A DNA stretch of 46,967 nucleotides from Lawsonibacter sp. GTDB taxonomy: Bacteria > Bacillota > Clostridia > Oscillospirales > Oscillospiraceae. Below are positions 24,584 through 35,410 of the stretch, piece by piece; the stretch's first letter is position 1; every line of letters starts with the position of its first letter. Both the position numbers and the translations under genes were made by a program. The notes under the pieces were generated by a model. That model was not told where the DNA came from and ran no database searches. It saw only the letters and a list, made by a program, of their open reading frames with translations. The stretch is taken from positions 1-46,967 of the forward strand of contig JAAWAD010000046.1 in NCBI GenBank assembly GCA_022791995.1, in the 5' to 3' direction.

Positions 24584-27500
24584 CTACTCCAGGAACTGCC
24601 GCACATCGGTGTTGTCCCGCCGGCTGTGGGTATAGATGGCCTGGGAGGGCTGGAGCAGGATGGACTGCCGCATGTCCCGCAGCAGGGAGCTGGCGGTGGC
24701 GGTGTCCCGCACGGCCCCCTCTCCGCTGAGATAGGGGTGAACACTGTGCAGTCCCCGGAAGCTCTGCTCCAGCTGGCCGTAGAGCGTGCGGTACACCGTC
24801 TGGATCTGTCCAACCCAGCGGCGGTCGGCCTGGATGGTGCGCTGGGCCGCCTGGGCCTGCTCCCGGGTGGACAAGCTCAGCCGGTTGAGCTGGAGAGCCC
24901 TGGAGGAGAGGCGGAACTGGGGCAGCATTACCGTGTCCTCCCCCATCCGCAGAGGGACGCCCGCCTGTGTCCAGAGCTTGGCGCCGCCGATGTCCGCACC
25001 GCCAGAGATCTGGAGTTTCCCGCAGCCGCCGAAGAGGCAGCCGCCGATATCTGCGCCGGGGTTGCCCCCCAGGGCCTTCACAATGCGGGCAGTTCCGGTA
25101 ATCAGGATGTCGCCGCACTCCCCTTGAATTCCGGCGCCGATAGCGGCGGCATGGAAAGCGGCCATTGCGGTGATTGTTCCGCCGCGGATGCAGATATCTC
25201 CCGCCGGAGCCCCCAGCGCCCCGCCGATGCCTGCCCCGCCGCCAGAGCTGCCGATGGAGGTGATGGTCCCGCCGGTCAGGGTAATGGAGCCCATCGCACC
25301 GTGCTTTCCCGCGCCGATGCCTGCACCGCCCCCTGTGCCAGTGGCGGTGATAACGCCGCCCTGAATCAAAATCTGACAGGTCTGTTCCCGGCCGGCGCCG
25401 CTGTCCCGCCCGATACCGGCGCCGCCGGCCCCGCCAGTGGCGGTGAGACTTCCGGCGGGGCTTCTGCTGTTCTTCCGGGCGGCGGGGCAGTCGATGCTCA
25501 GCCAGGTCCCCTCCCCCAAAGAGATCCCTGCACAGCCCAGGCCGCTTTCAAAGCAGCTGCTGGTCCCGCTTTGCAGCAGGAGCGCCACCCGGTTTTCCCG
25601 GCCCAGACAGAAGGCCTTCCCAGAGGATACCCGGCAGACCACGTTGCCCAGGGACAGCTCAATCTCGCCAATGTCGTCGGCCAGGGCAATTCTGCCGCTG
25701 AAGGGCTCTTGATTGGCGTCAGTTCCGGGGCCGCCTGAGAGGGCCGTCACCTGGGCGGACAAGATCCGAAGGGTCTGGGACTCCTCCTCATAGATCCAAT
25801 CCTGTCCCGGTTCTCCCCCTATCACGGTGAAAGGGTTGGGGTACATCTCAATCTCCTCAAAGGTGCGGGTCCGTTGGTTCCAGTGGAGATAGGCGTACCG
25901 AGTTCTGGGGCGGCCAAACTGGTCCTTGCCCCGGATGACCACTGTGTGGACGGGGTGTCCGTGGGAGGGGTCCAGCCACAGGCGCATAAGGTCGGGGGGA
26001 TTGCCGTTCCAGAGAGCCACCCGTACCTGCTTTCCGTCTGCGGCCATGGAGGTGATGCTGCTCCAGCCCGGCAGCAGGGTTTTCCAGACGACATCAAAGG
26101 GCTCCAGGGGTTTCCCGTCCAGGCTCCGCACGCTGCTGGCCTGGGCTGCCAGGGAGACAGGGCCGTCCAGCAGGACCGGGACTGGCAGAAGGGTGGGTTT
26201 GCCGCCCTCCGACTTCGCCGTTGTCACCGTCACCGCGCCCCCGGTCAGGCGAAGAACGCTGGATGGCTTTCCCTGGACTGTCTCAATGGACAGCTGTCCG
26301 TTGCCGTTCAGGTTCAGGACAGTTCCCTCCCCTAGTTGGAGACTGCCCAGCGCATTTTCTCCCGCGCTGAAGAGGCGGGCCGTTCCGGCGTCTACCGTCA
26401 GGGAAGGGCAGGCCATATTCTGAAGTGTGACTGTCCCTGAACCGGTAATCAGAAGGGCCGGGCTTTCCCGCCCCGTTCCGCAGAGGGTCACGTCCGCTGT
26501 TCCGTCCAGAATCAGCGCTCCGGTGGAGGCCTGGAAGGAGACCCCGGACAGGTCTCGCCCCATCACCTGCACGCCGTCCAGCTGTAGGACGGTCACAGGC
26601 GGGCGGGCAGTCTCTGTCCCCGCCAGCTGGGCTGGGCTGGCAGCGGTCGGGGAAGCAGCGCCAAGCTCCAGGCTGGCATCCGCCCCTGGCAGAGAGGCCA
26701 GCAATCCCAGCAGAAGGTCCAGGTTCATCCCCTCCATCCCCGCCAGGAAGCTTAGGATTGAAGTGCCATCCAGCACCAGCCCGGGGTTTTCCGTCAGCAG
26801 CAGGCCCACCAGAAAGTCCGTAAGGCCGGGGGCTGTGCCGCCGGTAAACTGGGCCTGGAACTCCTCCAGGCTGGAAAAGGCGCCGTTCGTCAGCTCCTCA
26901 ATGGCTTCATCCAGGGGGACGCCCTCTGACACCTTCTCCAGCAGCTGCCGAAGCCCCTCAAAGGCACGCTCCGGGTCGGGCTCTCCGGCGCCGGCAATCA
27001 CCGCCCCCAAATACAGGGCGGCCAGACGGGCGGCAGCCGGGTTGCTCTCCAGCGGAGCGTTGGCCAGGGCGGCCAGAATTTCCGCCCCGCTGGCGGTCCC
27101 GTCCAGCCCCAGGCCGGACAGGATCTGCTCCGAGGTGAGGCCGCCCTGCCTGATCCCCTCCAGCAGCCAGCTGGGGAGGGTCTGCACCGCATCCTGCTTT
27201 CCGGCCAGCTCCGTCATAACAATTTGCAGCAGGACCCCCGCCTCGTCGCCCAGGCCGGCGTCCTCCTCCAGAAACAGAGGCCGATCCCCCGCGATGGCGG
27301 CCCGGATCATCTGGTCAATGCGATCTCCCAGCTGCTCCAGCTCTGCCTGAAGGGCGGAGCGGTCAGGCGTGCTGCCTCCGGCGGCCTCCTGGGCCAGCTG
27401 TCCGATACGCTCCAGGCTGTCCTGCACCTCGGCCAGCACAGACTCTCCGGTTTGAAGGGTCTGCCGGCCCTCCCGGGCCTGGTTCTCCGCCTGACTGACC

Positions 27501-27658
27501 CGGGTCATGAGCTGCCGCAGGGTCTCGGACACAGTAAGTCCGCTCCCCCTGGACGCGCTCTGGCTCCGGCCGCTGCCGGAGGATTTTTTTGTCTGCTCTG
27601 TCCTCTGATACCGGGGAACCGAGAAGCTCCGGTTCCTGCGGATGGTCAGCTCTCCCAT
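24584..27658 (-). CDS. Giant flagellin-like protein with beta-helix-like centre
   Basis: Protein of 1024 residues without a signal peptide. Residues about 40-120 resemble the N-terminal flagellin helices (LTVSETLRQLMTRVSQAENQ, QTLQTGESVLAEVQDSLERI, then QLAQEAAGGSTPD). The last ~110 residues resemble the C-terminal flagellin helices (LSLSTREQAQAAQRTIQADR, then AVRDTATASSLLRDMRQSIL). The ~780-residue middle has a helical part (about 140-330), a strand-rich part, and a glycine-rich array (coded at about 24985-25445) repeating GGAGIG...GxIxIxGGxITA, as in surface beta-helix proteins. The first ~40 residues of a normal flagellin are replaced by a basic Ser/Gly-rich stretch. The start at 27658 follows GGGGAGG; TTG 27664 is the alternative. 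No flagellar genes are nearby. Function unknown; homology is by eye. Confidence 0.65.
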   Translation of the reverse strand: MGELTIRRNRSFSVPRYQRTEQTKKSSGSGRSQSASRGSGLTVSETLRQLMTRVSQAENQAREGRQTLQTGESVLAEVQDSLERIGQLAQEAAGGSTPDRSALQAELEQLGDRIDQMIRAAIAGDRPLFLEEDAGLGDEAGVLLQIVMTELAGKQDAVQTLPSWLLEGIRQGGLTSEQILSGLGLDGTASGAEILAALANAPLESNPAAARLAALYLGAVIAGAGEPDPERAFEGLRQLLEKVSEGVPLDEAIEELTNGAFSSLEEFQAQFTGGTAPGLTDFLVGLLLTENPGLVLDGTSILSFLAGMEGMNLDLLLGLLASLPGADASLELGAASPTAASPAQLAGTETARPPVTVLQLDGVQVMGRDLSGVSFQASTGALILDGTADVTLCGTGRESPALLITGSGTVTLQNMACPSLTVDAGTARLFSAGENALGSLQLGEGTVLNLNGNGQLSIETVQGKPSSVLRLTGGAVTVTTAKSEGGKPTLLPVPVLLDGPVSLAAQASSVRSLDGKPLEPFDVVWKTLLPGWSSITSMAADGKQVRVALWNGNPPDLMRLWLDPSHGHPVHTVVIRGKDQFGRPRTRYAYLHWNQRTRTFEEIEMYPNPFTVIGGEPGQDWIYEEESQTLRILSAQVTALSGGPGTDANQEPFSGRIALADDIGEIELSLGNVVCRVSSGKAFCLGRENRVALLLQSGTSSCFESGLGCAGISLGEGTWLSIDCPAARKNSRSPAGSLTATGGAGGAGIGRDSGAGREQTCQILIQGGVITATGTGGGAGIGAGKHGAMGSITLTGGTITSIGSSGGGAGIGGALGAPAGDICIRGGTITAMAAFHAAAIGAGIQGECGDILITGTARIVKALGGNPGADIGGCLFGGCGKLQISGGADIGGAKLWTQAGVPLRMGEDTVMLPQFRLSSRALQLNRLSLSTREQAQAAQRTIQADRRWVGQIQTVYRTLYGQLEQSFRGLHSVHPYLSGEGAVRDTATASSLLRDMRQSILLQPSQAIYTHSRRDNTDVRQFLE
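24985..25445 (-). repeat. Coding repeats: glycine-rich beta-helix-like array
   Basis: Within the flagellin-like gene, about five imperfect units of some 30 codons each encode GGAGIG-type turns followed by GxIxIxGGxITAxG strands. Each unit keeps the same spacing of Gly and Ile/Val, as expected for successive rungs of a parallel beta-helix. Confidence 0.6.
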
Positions 27659-27758
27659 TTGCAATGCCTCCCCTCGTCAGCTTTTTGCTGCCGTTCTATC
27701 TGGTTCTTCGGCAAAATTGCAAAAAAAGATAAGGGAGGAATCTGTTTTTCCGCCGGCT

Positions 27759-30433: not shown

Positions 30434-32209
30434 ATGTCCATTATCGGAATTGATCTGGGTACAACAAACAGCCTGGCCTGTGTCTGGCGGGAGGGCCGGG
30501 CGGAGTTGATCCCCAACGAATTGGGGGAGTATAAAACCCCAAGCGCCGTCAGCCTGCTGGAGGACGGCACGGTGCTGGTCGGGGCGGCGGCCAAGGAACG
30601 GCTGATTTCCCACCCGGAGTCCACCGCCGCATCCTTCAAGGTGTGGATGGGCTCAGCCAAGCCTACCACCTTGGGCGAGCGCAGCTTTTTGCCCGAGGAG
30701 CTGTCTGCCTTTGTCCTGCGGCAGCTGCTCCAGGACACCCGGCGGTACCTGAATGAGCCGGTGGAGGAGGCGGTCATCAGTGTGCCGGCCTATTTCAACG
30801 ACGACCAGCGCTGTGCCACCAAGCTGGCTGCCCAGCTGGCCGGGTGGACGGTAAAGCGGCTGATTAACGAGCCCTCCGCCGCCGCCCTGTACCACAGGCA
30901 GAGTACCGGGGCGGCGGACGGCCAGCGGATGATTGTGGACTTTGGTGGTGGAACCCTGGATGTGAGCATTGTGGAGTGCTTTGAAAATATCATCGAAATC
31001 ACCGCCATCGCCGGGGACAACCGCCTGGGGGGTGATGATATCGACCGGGCCATTGTAGAACATTTCTGCCAAGAGAACGGTCTGTCCCTGGAGACACTGG
31101 AGCCCAGCGCCAGGTCCGCCCTCTGCCGTCAGGTGGAAACCGCCAAGATTGCCCTGTCCGCCGCCGGAGCCGCCGCTATCACCCTTCAGCAGGGGGAGAC
31201 CCAGTACAGCCTGCTCCTTACCCGGGCCCTGTTGCGCCAGCTTTGCCAGCCGGTGTTCCAGCGGGTGCGGGCGGTCATCAGCCGAGCTCTGAAGGACCGG
31301 GGACAGATCGGCCGCATCGACGACGTGATTCTGGTGGGGGGCTCTGCCCAGCTTACCGTCTTCGGGGATTTTCTGGAGGAGCTCTTCGGCCGCCGCCCTG
31401 CTGTGGCCGCTAAGCCCGACGAGATTGTTGCCCTTGGGGTGGGGCTGTGCGCTGGCATCAAGGCCCGGGCGGAGGACCTTCAGGATCTGGTAATGACCGA
31501 CGTGTGCCCCTTTTCCCTGGGGGTGGCCACGTACAACAACACACACGACAGCACCCCTCACATGGCCTTTCTGATCTCCCGCAGCAGTATGCTCCCCGCC
31601 ACCCACCAGGGCAGGTTCGTTACCCTGCACGACAACCAGCAGGCCCTGCGTTTCGAGATTTACCAGGGAGAGGGCTACTTCGCCTCAGAAAACCTGAAGC
31701 TGGGGGAGCTGGAGGTCCAGGTCCCTCCGGGGCCGGCTGGAAGTCAGTCGGCGCAGGTCACCTTCACCTATGATATCGACGGCATCCTCCATGTGACTGC
31801 TCGGAGCAGCGGTGGGGATCTGCGGGACCGGTTGATTGTAAACTCCCGGCTTCACCTGACCCAGGAGGAGATGAAGCGGGCCCTGGAGCGCATTGAGCAG
31901 ATTCAGCTGGCCGCCCAGGGGACGCAGCAGGAGCAGTTTTTGATGGAATGGGCGCTGCGGCTGTATAAGCTGGCGGTGGGCCCTCAGCGCACGGCCCTGG
32001 CCGGCCTGATTGAGTGGTTCCGGGCCCACATGGGCCATGCCGGCCCCAGCCAGCGGCGGAAGCTGTACGCAAAAATGGAGGAGGAGCTGAGGCAGTTTGA
32101 GGTGGATATCCAGGCCGATCCCTTGGAATGGGGGATCTGGAAGGATTCGGACGACCTGGATGACTGGGACGAAGCGGATGACGATGAGGATACAGATTGG
32201 GAGGATTAA
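30434..32209 (+). CDS. Hsp70 (DnaK-like) chaperone
   Basis: Hsp70-family ATPase, 591 residues, shorter than housekeeping DnaK (about 610-640). The nucleotide-binding domain is complete: IGIDLGTTNSLACVW, NEPSAAALYH, VDFGGGTLDVSI and VILVGGSAQ. The substrate-binding beta domain (about residues 360-475; note VCPFSLGVATYNN) is followed by a helical lid, and the end is strongly acidic (DDLDDWDEADDDEDTDWED) instead of a DnaK EEVD-like or Gly-rich tail. It is not with grpE, dnaJ or hrcA. The next gene, 3 bases on, encodes a giant J-like protein, so this is a specialised Hsp70 with a dedicated co-chaperone. Client unknown. Confidence 0.9.
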   Translation: MSIIGIDLGTTNSLACVWREGRAELIPNELGEYKTPSAVSLLEDGTVLVGAAAKERLISHPESTAASFKVWMGSAKPTTLGERSFLPEELSAFVLRQLLQDTRRYLNEPVEEAVISVPAYFNDDQRCATKLAAQLAGWTVKRLINEPSAAALYHRQSTGAADGQRMIVDFGGGTLDVSIVECFENIIEITAIAGDNRLGGDDIDRAIVEHFCQENGLSLETLEPSARSALCRQVETAKIALSAAGAAAITLQQGETQYSLLLTRALLRQLCQPVFQRVRAVISRALKDRGQIGRIDDVILVGGSAQLTVFGDFLEELFGRRPAVAAKPDEIVALGVGLCAGIKARAEDLQDLVMTDVCPFSLGVATYNNTHDSTPHMAFLISRSSMLPATHQGRFVTLHDNQQALRFEIYQGEGYFASENLKLGELEVQVPPGPAGSQSAQVTFTYDIDGILHVTARSSGGDLRDRLIVNSRLHLTQEEMKRALERIEQIQLAAQGTQQEQFLMEWALRLYKLAVGPQRTALAGLIEWFRAHMGHAGPSQRRKLYAKMEEELRQFEVDIQADPLEWGIWKDSDDLDDWDEADDDEDTDWED

Positions 32210-32212
32210 GCT

Positions 32213-35200
32213 GTGGATGACATTTGGAGCATATTAGAGCTGGAGCCTACCCAGGATGTGGAAACCATCCGGGGGGCATATGCCCGGCAGACCCATAAGT
32301 ACCACCCGGAGGAGGACCCGGATGGCTTTCTTCGCCTGCGGCAGGCATATCAGGCCGCCCTGGCCCAGGCCCGGGGAGCGGCACCCGCTCCTGCCTCTCC
32401 GCCGGAGCAGGACAGGGATGCGGAAGAGCAGACCGCGCCGGGAGCGGACCAGGAGGACGCCGGCTGGGTACTTCCCGATCTGCCCCCGGAGGAAGGTCCC
32501 AACCCATTCCAGGATCACCCCGCCTTTTTGCAGTTTGTAGAGCTGTATACCGGCAAGCGCAGGAAGGACGCCAAGGCATGGATGGACTATGTGACCTCTG
32601 AACCCTTTCTGGACGCCGCCTGGGAGTCTTCGTTTCCCGCTCTGCTGCTGGCCAAGGTGACGGAGCTGGAGCGGGAGCTGCCTCCCACCCGGGAATTTCT
32701 CACCTGGCTGTCGGTGGCCTACCAGTACACCATCACCAAAAGCGTCTATCTGGACCGGGAGGAGTACCACATCAGCCACCCACACGAGGCAGACTTTGAC
32801 GGGATGCTTCTGATCAAACGGCTGGCCCTCAAGGGCCCCCTGCCCAAACGGCCCACTGGCAACGAGCTGTCCATCCGGGCCAGCTTTCAGGAGTACCGCC
32901 ATCTGGTGAAGCTGGCCCAGCTGGGGATCTGGGATGAACAGACCCTGCGGGAGTTCGACCACACCGTGCGCCGGTATGACAGCGCCTACCTCAAGGACAA
33001 CTGCGACCCCAAGGGGAACATGGAGCACCAGCGCCACCCCGCCGGCCTGCGAGTGCTCACCCACTTTTTCCGCCGGACGGACCTGCCCCAGGAGCTGTAC
33101 CGCACAGTGTGGCAACAGCTGGGCCTGAAAAGCGCCATCATGGGCCGGGCCAAGCTGTTCTACGGCCCCCTGCGGGAGCTGGTGGTGGAGCGGGTCCCGG
33201 ACATCGAGCAGAGCAAGACGGAGAGCTTTCTCCAGCTGAACCGGGACTACCGGGCCTACCGGGACCGCAACCGCATTCTGATGAGCAGTCGCCTGGAGAG
33301 CGACTGGGAGAAGGCCCGGGAGGAGACCGACGCCTTCTTTGTCCGGGAGGATTTTCAGCAAGCCCTGCGGGTGCGCCGCTTCGTGGAGAATCAGCTGCTC
33401 TTGTCCTGGCTCAATACCGCCTGGTGCGGGGAATATTTCCAGCAGCGCCTGCTGGATTTCTACCGGGAAAACCCGGACATCCCCGGCGCCTGTCAGGTGG
33501 TCCTCCGGCTGGAGCAGATGATTCAGGACCACGCGGTCCATCTGCGCAATGTGCAGGATACGTCCGCCCCGGTGCCGGAGGTCCTCACCCTGTCAGACCG
33601 GCCCTTTTTCCGCCACTGGCTGAACACCGGCTTCTATCCGGCCAGGGACCCGGAGACCGGCGCTCCTCTGCTGCAATATCTGACCCAGTTTCCTCTGCTG
33701 CCGGAGTGGAGCCGCCAGCTCCTGGGCGCGGAGGAGGGGGAGATCCCTGTCCCGAGGCAGGTGGTATACACCAATGGGGAGGATGAAATTTCCATCTGCT
33801 TCCACCTGCGGTACATGTCCTTCCAGCTCAACAAAGAGCCGATTTACCGGCCTATGCTGGACTGGGACTGGCTGGTGACTTTGCCGGAGGGGGATATGTT
33901 CTTCTTCCTGCTGCCTCTGGCGCTGTCCGTCTACAGCCAGTACGAGGCGGTGCGGACGGAGCTCCTCCGCCGTCTGGAGACCACCGCCGCCCCGGCGGAG
34001 GATCGGGCTGTCATCGCCGGGATGCTGGCCGGCCACGTGTGCCGCCTGCCCGTCCGGGAGAACGGGGACTGGGCAGACCCGGAGGATATCTTCCCCCTGG
34101 AGCTGTTTGCCGAGGACAGCGACCACCTCTACGGGTGTAGCTGGTTCCGGGACGAGGGGGAGCTGGTCCTCTTCGTACAGACTCCCTCCGGCCGGAGCGG
34201 CCTCCGGGACGGGGAGTACTCCAAGGTGTGGGACGAGGAGACCGCCCTGGCCCTGGCCCGGCAGCAGCTGGAGGAGCTGGTCTCCCCCTCGGGTTTCCAT
34301 GTGGAGCTTCTGAACCCCCTGCCAGAGGCAGTGTACTTAGACCCCGACTTTATGGCCATCGCCCGGGACCCGGAGCGCCGGGGGCAGAACCTCCCCCGCT
34401 CCCTGCTGCGCGACGCGGTGACGGCGGAGAGCCTGGAAACCCTGCTGCTCCTTTTCGCCCAGGGGGCCATCCGCCGGCTGGAGCTGTCCTGGAACGCCTT
34501 CATCCCCTGGGACCACGACTGTCCGTCGCGCCGCTCCCTGGTCTTTCTGAAGGACAAAGCGGGCTTCGCCTGCCTGGTCTTTGACGATACGCGGGCCAAG
34601 TCCTTCGCCCTGCTGTCCCGGCCCGAGCAGTACCGGAACCTGGAGTCGGACCAGGTGGAGTACCTTCCCTTCCGCCAGAGCGAGCTGGCCTGCTACAACG
34701 TCCATGTATCCTTCACCTCCATCCAGCGCAGACTGGACGAGGTTTTCCGGCAGATCGTCCTGCCCCAGGGGGTGGACATCCTGGGCAGCTTCCTGTGGAG
34801 CTACACCTACCGCACCGACCACGGGCGGCACAAATACAACATCGACAAGCAGCTGCTGGGGGGCTTTCCCCCGGAGCGGGCCCGCAACCGCCTCACCGCC
34901 AAGATCTACCTCTCCCTCTACCCTGACATGGCGGTGTACACCGACAACCAGGAGGAGCGGGAGGAGCTGTCTGTGGGCCGTCAGAACCGGGACCGCCTGC
35001 GCCACGCCCTGCTGCGCATGTTCCAGGGGGATTTGTCCAGACTGCGCATGACCTGGGGAACCCAGTCCGGCAGCCAGCGGCACATTTTCATCCTCCGGGA
35101 TGGGGAACGCTTCCTGCTGGCCCACCTGGACGACAGCCGGGAGCGGGCGGAGTTCCATGTGGCCGATGTGTCCACCTATATCAACGTGGAGGGGAAAAAG

Positions 35201-35410
35201 TACCCCAAGGACACCTTCCTGGGCCGGACCACCCCCGCCTACCTGATCCACCTGGGGGCCGCCGACCTGCGCAACGCCCTGGAGCTGCTGCTGGCCAATA
35301 TGGAGCACCCGAAGATCATCCTGGACGAGTTCGCCGCATACGCCTTTGAAAATCCGGTGAAGCCCCGGCCCTACAGCGCCATCCGGGCGGAGCTGGTGGA
35401 GGAGGACTGA
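32213..35410 (+). CDS. Giant J-domain-like co-chaperone
   Basis: Protein of 1065 residues with a short N-terminal J-like domain: MDDIWSILELEPTQDVETIR, then the loop motif KYHPEEDPDGFLRLRQAYQ, where the canonical HPD is HPE. An acidic Pro/Ala-rich linker (about 55-100) follows. The remaining ~950 residues match nothing I can name; they are soluble, rich in Trp, Tyr, Arg and Leu, without membrane segments. GTG at 32213 is the start, eight bases after GGAGG, and only 3 bases separate it from the Hsp70 stop. The tight coupling suggests the two act together, the long C-terminal part probably choosing the client. Confidence 0.8.
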   Translation: MDDIWSILELEPTQDVETIRGAYARQTHKYHPEEDPDGFLRLRQAYQAALAQARGAAPAPASPPEQDRDAEEQTAPGADQEDAGWVLPDLPPEEGPNPFQDHPAFLQFVELYTGKRRKDAKAWMDYVTSEPFLDAAWESSFPALLLAKVTELERELPPTREFLTWLSVAYQYTITKSVYLDREEYHISHPHEADFDGMLLIKRLALKGPLPKRPTGNELSIRASFQEYRHLVKLAQLGIWDEQTLREFDHTVRRYDSAYLKDNCDPKGNMEHQRHPAGLRVLTHFFRRTDLPQELYRTVWQQLGLKSAIMGRAKLFYGPLRELVVERVPDIEQSKTESFLQLNRDYRAYRDRNRILMSSRLESDWEKAREETDAFFVREDFQQALRVRRFVENQLLLSWLNTAWCGEYFQQRLLDFYRENPDIPGACQVVLRLEQMIQDHAVHLRNVQDTSAPVPEVLTLSDRPFFRHWLNTGFYPARDPETGAPLLQYLTQFPLLPEWSRQLLGAEEGEIPVPRQVVYTNGEDEISICFHLRYMSFQLNKEPIYRPMLDWDWLVTLPEGDMFFFLLPLALSVYSQYEAVRTELLRRLETTAAPAEDRAVIAGMLAGHVCRLPVRENGDWADPEDIFPLELFAEDSDHLYGCSWFRDEGELVLFVQTPSGRSGLRDGEYSKVWDEETALALARQQLEELVSPSGFHVELLNPLPEAVYLDPDFMAIARDPERRGQNLPRSLLRDAVTAESLETLLLLFAQGAIRRLELSWNAFIPWDHDCPSRRSLVFLKDKAGFACLVFDDTRAKSFALLSRPEQYRNLESDQVEYLPFRQSELACYNVHVSFTSIQRRLDEVFRQIVLPQGVDILGSFLWSYTYRTDHGRHKYNIDKQLLGGFPPERARNRLTAKIYLSLYPDMAVYTDNQEEREELSVGRQNRDRLRHALLRMFQGDLSRLRMTWGTQSGSQRHIFILRDGERFLLAHLDDSRERAEFHVADVSTYINVEGKKYPKDTFLGRTTPAYLIHLGAADLRNALELLLANMEHPKIILDEFAAYAFENPVKPRPYSAIRAELVEED

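Follow-up and report, generated by a model that had tools for sequence, protein, structure and literature searches.

The locus analysed here lies on contig C85 of a 2.18 Mb, 80%-complete Lawsonibacter genome (the window, i.e., the whole stretch of 46,967 nucleotides), and raises the question of what a protein with flagellin-like ends around a large inserted centre might be. The preliminary description of this DNA had pointed to that layout, to the absence of a signal peptide and to the lack of flagellar genes nearby. All three observations hold: the ends are those of a flagellin and enclose a large centre, the gene adjoins no flagellar genes in the window, and the protein has neither a signal peptide nor an anchor domain recognized by Pfam. 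The reading that we favour, with middling confidence, is that of a flagellin paralogue that arose from a flagellinolysin-like giant flagellin and is most likely not a filament subunit. The features of the gene are collected in Table 1.

Table 1. Layout of the gene and its product; positions are those of the window.
Feature	Positions	Strand	Remarks
Whole gene	24584..27658	-	1024 aa; ATG 27658; stop 24584-24586
Sigma-28-type promoter CTTATCTTT-N12-GCCGAAGA	27705..27733	-	-10 element begins 54 nt 5' of ATG
N-tail, residues 1-41, in the place of the canonical flagellin D0-N helix	27536..27658	-	
Flagellin D1 N-terminal helices, residues ~41-134	27257..27538	-	Pfam Flagellin_N, hhalign, model
Helical remnant of flagellinolysin peptidase, without HExxH, residues ~160-290	26789..27181	-	NF033876, hhalign
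First beta-helix, residues ~356-511	26126..26593	-	
Beta domain, residues ~517-600, numerous invariant W/H/Y/G positions	25859..26110	-	
Cthe_2159-type right-handed beta-helix, residues 606-894	24977..25843	-	
Flagellin D1 C-terminal helix, residues ~926-981	24716..24883	-	Model; flagellin alignment
C-terminal D0 segment, residues ~982-1024, more charged, register kept	24587..24715	-	

The flagellin nature of the ends was established for domain D1. Pfam Flagellin_N was matched by 35 of 35 family members at E <= 0.01 (the window protein at 7.9e-12), and hhalign aligned the N-terminal D1 helices of the window protein to flagellin with a probability of 98.8%, beginning at residue 36. Of the 44 family proteins, 35 are included in the family alignment, A2 (L067, L074, L079, L080, L084, L086, L091, L093 and L094 were omitted); 4 of the 44 are partial (L074, L080, L086 and L094). 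Flagellin_C was matched by none of the 35 members at the same Pfam threshold; by profile-profile comparison with a reference set of 3 flagellins, the C-terminus of the window protein is homologous to flagellins (hhalign, 97.6%), and its D1 helix is aligned with them as far as residue 981. In the predicted model, helices 43-93 and 100-120 on the N-side and helix 932-971 on the C-side form a D1 fold, in which the two ends pack against each other. Thus, the two things that the preliminary description had looked for were found: confident flagellin similarity, given by Pfam for the N end and by profile-profile comparison for the C end, and ends that pack together.

The tails outside D1 are different from those of canonical flagellins. 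Using flagellins from the genus and a few further genomes of the order as a comparison, we found proline in 37 of 38 parsed family N-tails, versus 0 of 16 flagellins (~44 residues preceding D1; 4 of 42 family tails were not parsed). The hydrophobic fraction of the N-tail is 0.31 in the family and 0.41 in flagellins. The last 35 residues (1 of 17 flagellin C ends was incomplete) contain 5.4 K+R in the family versus 1.3 in flagellins and have hydrophobic fractions of 0.36 and 0.50, respectively, with about equal numbers of prolines. The N-tail of the window protein is coil with pLDDT <50 in the predicted model and, by alignment start, prolines and this low-confidence coil, a canonical D0 N-terminal helix is absent from the protein. 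A common motif (M, 1-3 residues, L/M/I, any residue, I/V/F, R/Q/K/G) stands at the start of 42 of 42 family proteins, and over the 40 codons at either end of the gene, pN is lower than pS in 12 of 12 close pairs; tails that are changed yet conserved in this way indicate that D0 was remodelled under selection. In a PDB profile search, flagellin alignments reach into the N-tail (e.g., residues 8-129 on 9hpz), indicating that D0-N is altered rather than deleted.

These tails bear on the possibility that the protein is a minor filament subunit, whose changed D0 would still pack, so that the protein is interspersed among flagellins or located near the hook or tip, and the flagellum displays the beta-helix. 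The prolines, the lower hydrophobicity of both D0 parts and the more charged C end speak against this possibility. For polymerization, the N- and the C-terminus of flagellin are each described as critical (PMC8306008). On the other side are the complete D1, the D0-C register kept to the last residue, the flagellin alignments running into an N-tail of nearly D0-N length (40 versus 44 residues), and the presence of active flagellinolysin in filaments (PMC5595980). We consider a minor subunit rather unlikely. The prolines in the N-terminal D0 and the charged C-terminal D0 similarly weaken one of the two earlier proposals, a flagellin that polymerizes to display a giant domain, which we regard as doubtful. 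The other proposal, a relic flagellin fold reused, fits better, and the sigma-28-type promoter, the co-occurrence with the flagellum and the flagellinolysin-like descent can now be added to it.

The region that follows the N-terminal D1 helices points to this descent. Flagellinolysin (NF033876; PMC5595980) likewise has flagellin ends around an insert, a gluzincin peptidase, and the part of this peptidase with homology in the family is the helical half that follows the active site; the family differs in having no HExxH, a remodelled D0 and two beta-solenoid parts. The NF033876 profile matched the window protein with E 4.4e-5 and 23.1 bits, which does not reach the curated cut-off of 205; an HExxH-bearing protein of genome G027 is likewise below this cut-off, at 174 bits. 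The latter, flagellinolysin-like protein (contig C35) has 1595 aa, a canonical D0, the motif HEMIH and a homologous beta-helix region. Residues ~160-290 of the window protein were aligned to it by hhalign with a probability of 97.9%, compared to 0.1-0.5% for 3 shuffled and 1 reversed controls, and the peptidase-domain homology is confined to the half after the active site. HExxH was found in 0 of 44 family proteins, of which 42 cover the region (L074 and L094 do not). A midpoint-rooted D1 tree (166 columns) was built with 16 of 44 family proteins and two distant members. In it, the family is a single clade (100/99), and on the flagellin side the flagellinolysin-like protein of G027 branches off first, the other flagellins being grouped with 94/90. 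Judged from sequence, the window protein goes back to a flagellinolysin-like ancestor and has lost the catalytic half. The 2017 flagellinolysin paper reports that all flagellins identified in it retain the zinc-binding motif residues (PMC5595980), and in the literature that we searched, we found no report of protease-dead, D0-remodelled flagellinolysin members. Giant flagellins (PMC6248924) resemble the family in their length of ~1000 aa or more and large centre; however, they are described as forming filaments, whereas the family has an altered D0. Giant flagellins with canonical D0 were also seen in genomes G014 and G027, where their open frames span 1056 and 1069 aa (L056 and L057).

Most of the remaining centre is of beta structure. 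The window protein contains a right-handed beta-helix fold of the type of Cthe_2159, a polysaccharide-lyase-like protein (PDB 4peu, 4phb); unlike Cthe_2159, it has no PF14262 sequence match, this family being absent from those matched by 35 members (Pfam, E <= 0.01), and its beta-helix lies within a flagellin frame. Kindred beta-helix stretches are present in large proteins of the order, two of which (L031 and L035) have signal-peptide-like N-termini by eye. A cytoplasmic regulator, which would adjust flagellin export by binding FliS, FliW or FlhA with its D1-like ends and C-tail, has a precedent in Helicobacter HP1076, a protein of D1-like topology that uses the same FliS docking site as flagellin (PMC7248283), and the missing signal peptide is compatible with it. 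Such a role hardly accounts for a ~290-residue beta-helix of glycan-binding type, and the kindred proteins with signal-peptide-like ends also argue against it; we find it improbable.

The promoter connects the gene with flagellar control. With a scoring matrix built from other family members, no site on either strand of the window outscores the promoter of the gene (18.5 bits; runner-up, 14.0), whose -10 box departs from GCCGATA at two positions. Among 41 relatives (41 of 43 loci; L074 and L094, with the start missing or not placed, were omitted), 37 have GCCGATA within 250 bases upstream, compared to a background expectation of 0.024 per 250 bases, and all 37 have TTA 17-20 bases 5' of it, giving the consensus CTTATCTTT-N11/12-GCCGATAT. 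Two others (L076 and L093) have near variants of the box, and 2 of the 41 (L066 and L090) have no recognizable box. We take this pattern to be the sigma-28 consensus, a reading supported by other genomes of the genus, in which such boxes are found ahead of a flgM and a cheA gene; the exact box is absent from the ordinary flagellin genes examined. The pattern has 27 matches in 60 genomes, versus 5 for the reversed-pattern control in the same 60. The genes 3' of the 27 matches (9 Pfam-scanned, the rest assigned by likeness) are 5 family members, 7 'RTARF' proteins, 5 ECF-sigma-like genes, 1 FlgM, 1 CheA and 1 DUF3879; the remaining 7 matches are followed by unclear or non-flagellar genes or by no ORF.

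The distribution of the gene is also associated with the flagellum. The gene is present in 26 and FlhA in 34 of 64 genomes of the genus, with both in 25; FlhA thus occurs in 25 of 26 carriers versus 9 of 38 non-carriers (Fisher p 3.2e-9, not corrected for phylogeny). In the 31 better genomes, the corresponding numbers are 12 of 12 and 5 of 19 (p 8.8e-5, again not corrected for phylogeny). A family member is missing from 9 of 34 FlhA-positive genomes, and one carrier (G068, 79% complete) has no FlhA match. A scan of 394 genomes of the order, with scoring limited to 2 candidates in each genome, yielded two further members, L159 (G373) and L160 (G252), both in one other genus, in FlhA-positive genomes and with sigma-28-like boxes. 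Since they belong to another family of the order, the protein is either older than the genus or has moved between lineages. Relatives found by sequence are in records titled Lawsonibacter, Oscillibacter, Flintibacter muris, Flavonifractor, Pseudoflavonifractor, Oscillospiraceae, and other Firmicutes or Clostridia, from which the host is very probably a gut member of the Oscillospiraceae; carriers include Flintibacter muris DSM 110149 (L090) and Pseudoflavonifractor sp. 60 (L085, box starting 45 bases 5' of the start codon). Gene neighbours are not conserved among relatives, so the gene and its promoter stay together in changing surroundings. Export by another route with retention at the cell surface, the flagellin ends serving only as a clamp that closes the fold, would agree with these changing neighbours and with the position of the gene away from flagellar genes in the window; it is quite improbable in view of the flagellar-type promoter, the FlhA co-occurrence and the lack of a signal peptide and of a Pfam anchor domain.

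The gene is under purifying selection, with dN/dS of 0.11-0.32 in 12 close pairs; because some loci are near-copies (L077/L079 and L083/L084) and the pairs share loci, neither the locus counts given above nor the pairs are independent. A functionless, decaying flagellinolysin relic, which the absent catalytic half and changed D0 might suggest, is very improbable, because no internal stops were found at any listed family locus, these dN/dS values and the low pN in the end codons indicate constraint, and the promoter is conserved.

For the favoured reading, a flagellin paralogue outside the filament, we infer the following course. The gene would be expressed late, at filament assembly. After transcription, the kept C-terminal D0 segment may still bind FliS or a relative, and the C-tail would guide the product to the type III export gate of the flagellum; FliS is known to wrap the C-terminal part of flagellin (PMC7248283). 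Outside the cell, D1 would fold into a clamp that closes the large insert, while the altered D0 would fail to pack into the inner tube, preventing entry into the filament. The protein would then either be set free or become attached to, or close to, the surface of the cell or filament, and its beta-helix may there bind mucus, plant or bacterial polysaccharide. The closest parallel is C. jejuni FlaC, described as a secreted, FliS-dependent, non-structural flagellin that is not incorporated in the filament (PMC5466977). The family would share with FlaC its origin as a flagellin paralogue and, presumably, export without entry into the filament; however, FlaC retains D0-D1 and largely lacks the central region, whereas the family has a large centre and an altered D0, and FlaC is therefore only a partial precedent. 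Tentatively, one could envisage a class of flagellin-derived export products that keep the D1 clamp and the chaperone-binding C-segment, drop polymerization and proteolysis, and deliver a glycan-binding core via the flagellar export gate. If this is right, a polymer-forming flagellin can become a separate protein under retained flagellar control, an enzymatic flagellin may lose its enzyme and yet be kept, and gut commensals would have a flagellum-linked glycan-binding protein.

R84, L88 and E106 of the window protein correspond to the described TLR5-contact residues of Salmonella flagellin; in 35 members, they are kept in 31, 33 and 30 cases, respectively. With the D1 residues mostly kept and the C-terminal D0 altered, the protein resembles the definition of 'silent' flagellins (PMC11285207), and hence might also be a TLR5 ligand of this 'silent' kind in the gut.

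Several other loci were noted in passing. In the window, positions 30434-35410 (+) hold an HSP70 gene and, 3 bases on, an ORF of 1065 aa that matches nothing in Pfam at 1e-5. L090 sits behind the end of an apparent chemotaxis-receptor gene (by eye). A second sigma-28-boxed protein of ~226-232 aa (L115, L116, L121, L124, L128, L133 and L138; three were scanned against Pfam and gave no clear match) has an N-terminal QISPxRTxRFAxPE-like motif, loosely like the IRRNRGFAVP tail of the family, and from the similarity of these motifs, a common export signal is possible. ECF-type sigma-factor-like genes lie 27-60 bases behind the same box at L114 (Pfam-scanned) and at L127, L130, L136 and L137 (assigned by likeness).
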